Positions 58,141 through 64,000 of a stretch of DNA of 64,000 nt are shown here, piece after piece. The position numbers and the translations under genes are program-made. The DNA is from Ianthella basta (taxonomy: Eukaryota; Porifera; Demospongiae; Verongiida; Ianthellidae): positions 1,630,280 to 1,694,279 of the forward strand of contig OZ025881.1 of NCBI GenBank assembly GCA_964019415.1. Reading direction: 5' to 3'. The notes below the pieces were generated by a model. The model was not told the origin of the DNA. It saw nothing but the letters and a program-made list of their open reading frames with translations, and did not search any database. Position 1 is the stretch's first letter; every line of letters starts with the position of its first letter.

Positions 58141-61100
58141 ATGAATCCTTCCCTTTTCGGGCTGAAGCACGAGTTCGGTGCCCTCGCACTCTCCGATCGC
58201 GACGTAAAGGAAACGGCAAAGGAGCTGGGAAGGGGATCCTACGGGGAAGTGAAGGAGGCTTACTGGCTTGGGACACCATGCGCCATAAAGAGAGTGCACC
58301 CCTTGCTAGTGCCGCAGTCGGGCGCAGTGGAGGACAACAAGGTGTCTCGGGACTTTGTCCAAGAATGCCGAGCATGGAAAGACCTACGACATCCCCACAT
58401 CGTGCAGCTGCTGGGCGTGGTTTTCGAGCAGGCATCTCCCCTCCCTGTGCTGGTGATGGAGCGTCTGAGCACCAGCCTCCGGCGGTTCTTGGAGGAACAC
58501 AACAAGGAAGAGTTCCCTCTTGATAGAAAGGTCTCCGTCCTGTATCAGGTGGCTTTGGGCCTAGTCTACCTCCACAGCCAGAAGCACATCCACCGTGATT
58601 TCTCCTTGAAACGGACAGTTGGAAGGCAAAGATCACTGACTTTGGAGTCAGTCGTGTGCTTGATTCAACTAAAAGTCGAATGACTGGCACACTTGTTCCA
58701 GGTGGGTGTGGGTGGGTACATTCATATAGTGTGTGTATGTGTGTGTGTGTGTGTGTGTGTGTGTGTGTGTGTGTGTGTGTGTGTGTGTGTGTGTGTGTGT
58801 GTGTGTGTGTGTGTGTGTCTGTGTGTGTGTGTGTGTGTGTGTGTCTGTGTGTGTGTGTGTGTGTGTGTGTGTGTGTGTGTGTGTGTGTGTGTGTGTGTGT
58901 GTGTGTGTGTGTGTGTGTGTGTGTGTGTGTGTGTGTGTGTGTGTGTGTGTGTGTGTGTGTGTGTGTGCATGTGCATGTGCACGCATGTGTGTTTAAGCAT
59001 TGTGTATGTGTTCAGTGTGTATGTGTGGAGTGTGTGTGTATGCGTGTGGGTGGGTGCGTGTGAGTGTGCATATGTGGGTGTCGGTGGTATAGGTGTGCAT
59101 TTGTCCTGCTTTGTTACTCAATGGCAGAACGTGTCAACCACGGGGACCTTCTTCAGCTGTTCTTCAGCTCTTTCGTTTAGTCTGTTCATGTATACATTAC
59201 ATCAATATTAACATTTTCAACAATCATTGACAGTTTATTATTCGTGTTTACTGTCTCTTACAGGCACACAAGCCTTCATGCCTCCCGAGATGTTTGAGAT
59301 ACCTGCTCAATTCAGTGACAAGTTAGATGTGTTTTCCTTTGGGTGTGTCATCATCAGCACCCTCGCGCACCGATGGCCAGAACCAGGCCCTGCCAAACGC
59401 CGAGTTGGAGGGAAACTGGTAGCCCTGACTGAATATCAACGCCGGGAGCATTTCTTTGCACAGTTGACTCCACAGGAGAAGGAGCTGTTTCTTAGACTCG
59501 TTGAATGGTGTCTACAAGAGGAGCCTTCCAGGCGCCCTTACTCTCATGATGTAGTGGAAAATCTTGTCAGGGTTACAACGAAAGTGGGGAAGGCCACTAG
59601 AGGCGGAATGGTGAGGAGTTACTGTAGAAACATAGCTGGTTAAATCTATCTCTATTCTGTACTGAAAAGTATGGAACCCTTATAATGTGCACCATGACAA
59701 AATGTCTTGATTATAGAGATGTCAACATTACAGAGCTACGCCGTATGTTGCACAATGTCTGTAAGCGACCAGGAAAGGAGTAAGTTGGCAGTTTCTTACA
59801 TGTCATTCCTGCAGAAGTGGTGACTAGTTTTGCACACCTTCCCCGTGCTTCCTGCTACCTTCGTCTATACGTGAAGAAGCTCCCTTCTTCTCCGCTGTCT
59901 ACCTCCTCAGCGACATAGGGCTATAGGAGGGGTAGAATCAATTTTAGACTGAGCTTCATCAGCGCTTTTGAATGGTGTGCCTGTGTGTGGATACCTGCAA
60001 GCTCGAGAGAGAAAGAAGGGGCATAGCCCTACAGTACAGAATTTTGCAATGTGTATGTGTATAAATTCGCTACGTGCGTGCTTCCCGGTCACCATCACAT
60101 GATACTTGGCCACCCTCCTCTGTACCCATTTTACATTAAAACAATTTTGTTACATGAGGAAGCCATACATCAAAGCAAGCTGCAGTGTGCTGATTTCGCA
60201 TAACGCCACTGTTTACGCTTTCACACCTCATAACACACTGTGTCAAATGCGGCTCTTATTTGCTAACCCAATCACTTTCTAGCCTTAAACAAACGTTTTG
60301 TTTACTGCATTAGCAAAATGCCTTTGATATTCATCACCTTGTAAACTTTCTCGTGAACATTGGCTCTGGAATGATGAGTGCTTGGCACTTGGAAGCATGG
60401 TCATCAACATAAATTAATGCCTAGCACAGCACTGCACGTGTACTTTTATGGCAGTGACATGTAATTGTGCATGTAATGTCTTTAGTGACAGAGAAACTCA
60501 GATTCCCTTTCCCGAGTTTACTTAATAGATCAACTTGAAGGTAAGTCTTGCCACTCCCAAGTTCTCCAGTCGTTTAAATCCTAGTACACTCTCTAAAAAG
60601 AAATTTCTCCCTTCATACGCTGCTTGTAGGACTTCTAATCACCTGCCCTAGTGCCGACTCAAGCGGCGCCGACGCTTTATTCAGTACGAGAGGCCGCTGA
60701 CAGTCTTTTCCCTGCGATGCTTCTCGCCTTTCGCCTTGTGCTCCGAAAAGAGCGTGTTCTCTGGTTTCTATAGTAACTTCAGTCAGGTTCATTCGGTAAA
60801 TTCATTCGACAGCAAACGAATTCAAACGCTAATCGCTGCTGTTTGAATCATAACAAGTCAGTTATAACATGGCCGCTCAGGCGCTTAGCTGATTTATTGC
60901 ACTCGGGCGCTTCGCGCCCTCGTGTGATAAATCAGCCAGCGCCCTCGCGGCCATGTTATAACTAGTACATATATGTGGTATGCTTGAACAGTTACAATCA
61001 GATAAATTTGTAAAGGTGGTTCATGCAGTAACGTTAAACTATGCATACAATTTTAAAATAGTAATAATGATAATGCTTAATTTAATAATTTTAATAATCA

Positions 61101-64000: not shown

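Follow-up and report, generated by a model that had tools for sequence, protein, structure and literature searches.

A candidate fusion of a TKL-type kinase, a coil and a HOIP-type ubiquitin ligase in a tandem locus of the sponge Ianthella basta

Introduction

HOIP/RNF31, the catalytic subunit of LUBAC, carries a UBA_HOIP pair, RING1-IBR-RING2 and an LDD. In mammals its PUB region tethers deubiquitinases, and in vertebrates LUBAC and its partner kinases are distinct proteins. A HOIP-type RBR-LDD can also stand behind another N terminus, as in P0041 (ENA), where FN3 is found, no kinase or UBA_HOIP is matched and a Death match stays under the cut-off. Closest in architecture to the locus studied here is an uncharacterized Dysidea avara protein (P0002, NCBI, 1144 aa, from a cluster of 10) with a kinase, a coil region, UBA_HOIP and RBR. 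No description of a kinase-HOIP fusion was found in the literature covered, with subscription papers on RBR evolution outside its scope, and the main text of PMC12909245 holds no word beginning HOIP or RNF31.

The window analysed is a stretch of 64,000 nucleotides (C14:1630280-1694279). An earlier note on its last part had proposed a TKL/RIPK-like kinase joined through a coiled coil to a HOIP-type ligase in one plus-strand gene. Here we compare that gene with its neighbours, with the remainder of the genome (209 Mb, 96 contigs) and with the D. avara protein. Beyond 64000, positions are counted on in window coordinates (C14 position = window position + 1630279).

Results

Three tandem HOIP-related genes

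The locus consists of three tandem genes: A, an ordinary HOIP; B, a kinase-coil-HOIP gene; and C, a full kinase-coil-UBA-RBR-LDD gene lying past the window end. UBA_HOIP (PF16678) has three matches genome-wide, one in each gene.

Gene A probably spans 36365-56915 (about 36.4-56.9 kb) on the plus strand and comprises a PUB-like region, UBA_HOIP, RBR and LDD. Counted from its PUB region, it has 13 exons up to the stop codon (43847..56915) with an open frame throughout, and a probable N-terminal exon on the same strand (36365..36460) was located by tblastn with the N terminus of the HOIP protein P0050 (E 1.6e-5). Pfam matches were obtained for UBA_HOIP (1.1e-24) and LDD (PF18091, 1.6e-18), while PUB, searched from 43847 on, scored 30.1 bits, below the 34.3 cut-off. 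Of its 12 donors a single one is GC, at the end of exon 4 (45400-45860, plus strand, exon numbering of the earlier note). The domain order in A and C is that of HOIP/RNF31, and both keep the catalytic RING2 Cys. The HOIP halves of A and C share 73% identity over 641 residues, and the two genes are 82% identical through an intron; dS lies between 0.15 and 0.46, with one exon pair at 0.63.

Frameshift in the kinase of the window copy

Gene B runs on the plus strand from 58141 to beyond 64000 (58.1 to 64.0 kb within the window), with kinase, coil and HOIP UBA exons found as they had been named. Kinase exon 1 (58141..58701) holds the N-lobe, HRD and DFG, and exon 2 (59264..59610) the remainder of the C-lobe, ending at a phase-0 donor. 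The coil exon (62239..62658; 140 codons, phase 0 in and out, GC donor) is followed by two exons matching UBA_HOIP, a UBA exon (63128..63406) and a UBA/linker exon (63614..63823), and by the start of an exon leading toward RING1 (63915..64000) that is interrupted by the window end. The RING lies outside the window, as had been stated. That of gene B falls within the 5,000 bases following the window end, which read N; beyond them the contig shows RING1-IBR-RING2-LDD in gene C. UBA_HOIP in gene B has E 1.8e-20, and the kinase C-lobe reaches E 5.3e-7 with 29.7 bits, under the 31.7 cut-off.

The proposal that the exon phases join holds from exon 2 onward, where 446 residues to the window end are stop-free with compatible phases, but fails for exon 1. 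Compared with gene C, exon 1 of gene B has a 16-bp deletion in the catalytic loop directly after HRDFS, between 58605 and 58606, where the break carries a 4-base repeat (CTCC). The deletion shifts the frame to a stop at 58681-58683 and also removes the catalytic-loop Asn. The two exons are otherwise 97% identical, and the gene C counterpart is open. An assembly error is a possible source of the deletion; as it stands, gene B cannot encode a full kinase, and would yield at most a shorter product.

Gene C is a complete copy

Gene C occupies 71496-81765 (C14:1701775-1712044, stop included), with 14 exons joining in phase; kinase exon 1 lies at C14:1701775-1702351 and the UBA exon at C14:1706754-1707032. 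All 13 introns have AG acceptors and GT or GC donors, GC being used twice, after the coil exon and after the copy of gene A exon 4. The frame is open for 1,159 codons, followed by one further codon and a TAA stop. Pfam identifies a kinase (residues 25-293, 9.1e-40), UBA_HOIP (548-695, 2.6e-21), IBR (861-924, 7.8e-11) and LDD (PF18091, 1021-1123, 5.7e-21), in that order. The kinase motifs are kept (GRGSYG, AIK with K50, HRDFSTNN, DFG and PPE) and include every element of the active-kinase set of Gly-loop, AIK Lys, HRDxxxxN and DFG, a set left incomplete in gene B by the deletion in the loop. For the RBR-LDD part, the best structure matches are human RNF31 (E 3.1e-82); the alignment conserves C885, H887, R935 and D936 (numbering worked out in this analysis), the RING2 catalytic Cys is C968, and an Asp is changed to His (HHPRHC versus human HHPRDC). 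Gene C most likely encodes a single chain of ~1,160 residues in which both the kinase and the HOIP-type transfer centre are intact. The kinase-coil-HOIP gene that had been proposed from the window is well supported by gene C and by the colinear D. avara protein; in the window copy itself the kinase frame is broken.

In genes B and C the N-terminal half of HOIP/RNF31 is replaced by a kinase and a coil. A Pfam search of gene C found no PUB, and there was no NZF match at E 0.1 in gene C or in gene A from 43847 on. Lacking the N-terminal PUB (and NZF) region, the B/C genes are best described from their sequence as HOIP-derived fusions, not full HOIPs.

The fourth exon of gene C (75894-76199) is chimeric, with a UBA-exon-like start followed by HOIP exon, and reads as a sign of unequal crossing-over in which the frame was retained. 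Such an exon is typical of recombination and, together with the frameshifted kinase of gene B, might suggest that neither B nor C is functional and that both arose as by-products when unequal crossing-over reshaped a fast-changing locus. Identity between B and C in the introns between coil and UBA (89%) indeed matches that of the exons. Against this, gene C is open throughout, the kinase and ligase motifs checked are kept and the joints are in frame. Moreover, pooled differences between B and C, counted in exon 1 only upstream of the deletion, favour synonymous sites (65/415 versus 118/1388, p 3.5e-5). The bias is seen for the kinase alone (p 6.8e-4) and for HOIP (0.010), and the coil alone gives no significant constraint (p 0.11). 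We consider it very unlikely that both genes are by-products.

One gene or two

An alternative division of the locus would have two co-duplicated neighbours, a short kinase gene reading into a stop after exon 2 and a coil-HOIP gene driven from a promoter of its own. Unspliced read-through past the exon 2 donor does meet a stop, at codon 11 in B and codon 17 in C, and the gene B intron after exon 2 contains two AATAAA signals (61412, 61952) and two ATTAAA signals (60135, 61120). However, neither signal occurs in the corresponding 1,221-bp intron of gene C. Identity between B and C, which have the same domain order, also falls precisely at the exon 2 donor, from 89% in exon 2 to 70% beyond it, and climbs at the coil acceptor, from 62% before it to 88% in the coil. 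No CARD exon that could belong to the coil was found at the locus (see below), and D. avara has the same order within one model. A candidate alternative first exon at 61400-61720 was set aside: it is also present in copy C, has two short matches elsewhere and bears no sign of coding. Two separate genes seem distinctly unlikely. The phases, the boundary-sharp conservation, the gene C intron free of polyadenylation signals, the synonymous bias and the D. avara model all favour one gene; the equal identity of introns and exons between coil and UBA counts against it. Kinase, coil and HOIP would probably lie on one chain.

The coil and its joint to HOIP

The coil exon had been described as a 135-residue coiled coil. 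The exon exists, with ~129 of its 140 codons assigned to coil, and is predicted as one helix (2-139, mean pLDDT 93.9), but its heptad periodicity does not exceed that of shuffled sequences (reached by 961/2000 for C and 346/2000 for B), and the coil assignment consequently rests on the predicted helix. By sequence the exon has relatives in CARD-coil genes found elsewhere in the genome, eight of which share 40-55% identity with the B coil. A CARD exon lies upstream at 14 of the 22 other coil places (one visible in a longer stretch), the remaining 8 being uninformative since for most loci only 1.5 kb upstream was covered. Pfam places one such CARD exon above the cut-off (29.2 versus 28.2 bits) and another below it (20.9). 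CARD was matched in neither B nor C, and a hidden CARD exon before the coil exon was sought with no match in 78.9 kb of the locus at E 1. The B/C genes thus share a homologous coil exon with the CARD-coil genes, whereas the upstream CARD exon and a different exon end are features of the latter. The CARD-coil family, located on C2, C3, C7 and C13 (L044 and L045 among its members), is a putative adaptor set.

The final 11 codons of the gene B coil exon (62626..62658, plus strand) have no counterpart in the coil family and resemble the end of HOIP exon 4. Gene A exon 4 ends in TGGTTGAAG and the gene B coil exon in TGGTTTAAG, each followed by GCAAGT on the intron side. The coil end of B matches 12 of the last 15 bases of A exon 4, the best among 164 AAGG(C/T) sites of the region after A and the copy in C; that of C matches 10 of 15, tied with three other sites. 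For 11 long coil relatives the match ends at residue 129-139 of 150, and in the 10 inspected, out of 23 loci, the reading continues into a different tail with, by eye, a GT-type donor; eight of these 10 were aligned. The HOIP-like exon end with its GC donor, located where the coil relatives diverge into other tails, supports an origin of the coil-HOIP joint within an exon. Both the likeness to exon 4 and the in-exon joint had been anticipated in the earlier note.

Kinship of the kinase

Both Pfam and the PDB ranking identify the kinase as TKL-type. A profile of eight kinases ranked CTR1 and TNNI3K first, followed by EGFR, a JAK-type chain, roco4 and IRAK4; no RIPK appears among the best 60 of 2380 matches, nor among those shown by a single-sequence search. 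With the rankings led by CTR1 and TNNI3K, the RIPK kinship once suggested is not supported. RIPKs have the TKL-type kinase in common with gene C. Of the further RIPK features (a Death or CARD tail, or a RHIM), Death and CARD gave no Pfam match in gene C.

The genome holds a large kinase family of the same type (129 matches; 128 of 925 candidates scored). Exon 1 is 76-80% identical to seven kinases on C5. For five loci dS is 0.58-0.72, higher than the A-C values. Within this family, three of eight aligned kinases (L051, L060 and L061) have HHD for HRD in the catalytic loop, and at L046 (C5) an ankyrin exon (6474-6719) lies ~6 kb after a relative of kinase exon 2, possibly marking a kinase-ankyrin gene.

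The Dysidea avara protein and separate origins

Among related species, the same domain order was found in P0002, as the earlier note had suggested searching for. It aligns colinearly with gene C, beginning at residue 25 and continuing to its C terminus (374/1145 columns identical); the model ends within the LDD. The kinase motifs are kept, and in RING2 a His occupies the place of the catalytic Cys (KGVHIHF). Among the matches listed (49; best 120 of 298), P0002 alone had kinase domains. None of the 86 matches from a kinase-coil-UBA search was listed with UBA_HOIP, but little weight attaches to this, as scoring was confined to the 7993 candidates with the most words in common and P0002 itself was not recovered.

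The shared order, coil region included, could point to a single ancient sponge fusion whose kinship was hidden by later conversion from unfused paralogues, and the A-C identity through an intron makes conversion possible. Both trees reject it, however, placing the two halves of P0002 outside the B/C lineages. The HOIP tree (20 rows: 17 chosen proteins with A, C and P0002) places A as sister to C (100/99) and rejects a clade of C with P0002 (p-AU 1.1e-4). A, C, a Dysidea avara protein and two others share one side of a branch (100/99), with the cnidarian, deuterostome and insect rows on the other. The kinase tree (24 rows) pairs B and C (100/99) and rejects a clade with P0002 (p-AU 1.1e-4), a value to be read as weaker support than it suggests, given its five long rows (one being P0002) and its 20 chosen kinase loci of this genome, 18 of them selected for similarity to gene C or P0002. 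In addition, the gene C kinase has its nearest relatives among the C5 kinases of the same genome, and the HOIP half of gene C is nearest to gene A. None of the 127 genomic places at which the P0002 kinase scored is a gene B or C exon, split exons scoring lower. We regard a single shared fusion as unlikely. Independent fusion is the simplest reading of the two trees, and the kinase-coil-HOIP architecture probably arose twice. If the origins are independent, the D. avara model backs the architecture and not the splicing of gene C.

Discussion

The preferred explanation, which we consider likely as a whole, is that an in-frame fusion placed two new parts, a TKL kinase module and a coil taken from a CARD-coil adaptor, before the UBA-RBR-LDD half of a duplicated HOIP gene. 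The fusion would now be present as the tandem pair B and C, with gene C encoding one chain. Judging from the families involved, the coil would cluster the protein and activate the kinase; clustering and phosphorylation could then switch on the attached RBR, which would build Met1-linked ubiquitin chains. With the PUB region absent, recruitment and switch-off would differ from those of LUBAC. Our best guess is a kinase that clusters itself, has a linear-ubiquitin ligase built in and lacks the PUB region, and it may fairly be inferred that a kinase step and the LUBAC step are merged on one chain.

If so, a chain with both activities would show that the two steps can couple directly, and the fusion offers a simple system for asking whether kinase activity controls linear-chain synthesis. 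Whether sponges have at least twice independently joined a TKL kinase and coil to HOIP, forming one clustered immune-signalling enzyme free of PUB-linked control, is in our judgement evenly balanced; a repeated origin would indicate selection for kinase-ligase coupling in sponge immunity. There may be a trade-off in which different copies keep different activities, since the Dysidea model has lost the ligase Cys and keeps its kinase motifs, and here one kinase copy is lost.

Other features of the window and genome

Elsewhere in the genome, IBR domains lie within single ORFs of 1,659 and 1,674 codons at C3:6120915 and C3:6213046; the split IBR exons of the present locus were absent from the list given by that search. 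Three further features lie on the minus strand of the window. Several long ORFs at 5736-9003 perhaps form one multi-exon gene, one piece having no PDB sequence match and another no Pfam match. A LINE-like element, with frames for an endonuclease and a reverse transcriptase, occupies 16881-20578, and an ORF at 34595-35644 encodes a forkhead domain (PF00250, E 4e-39).
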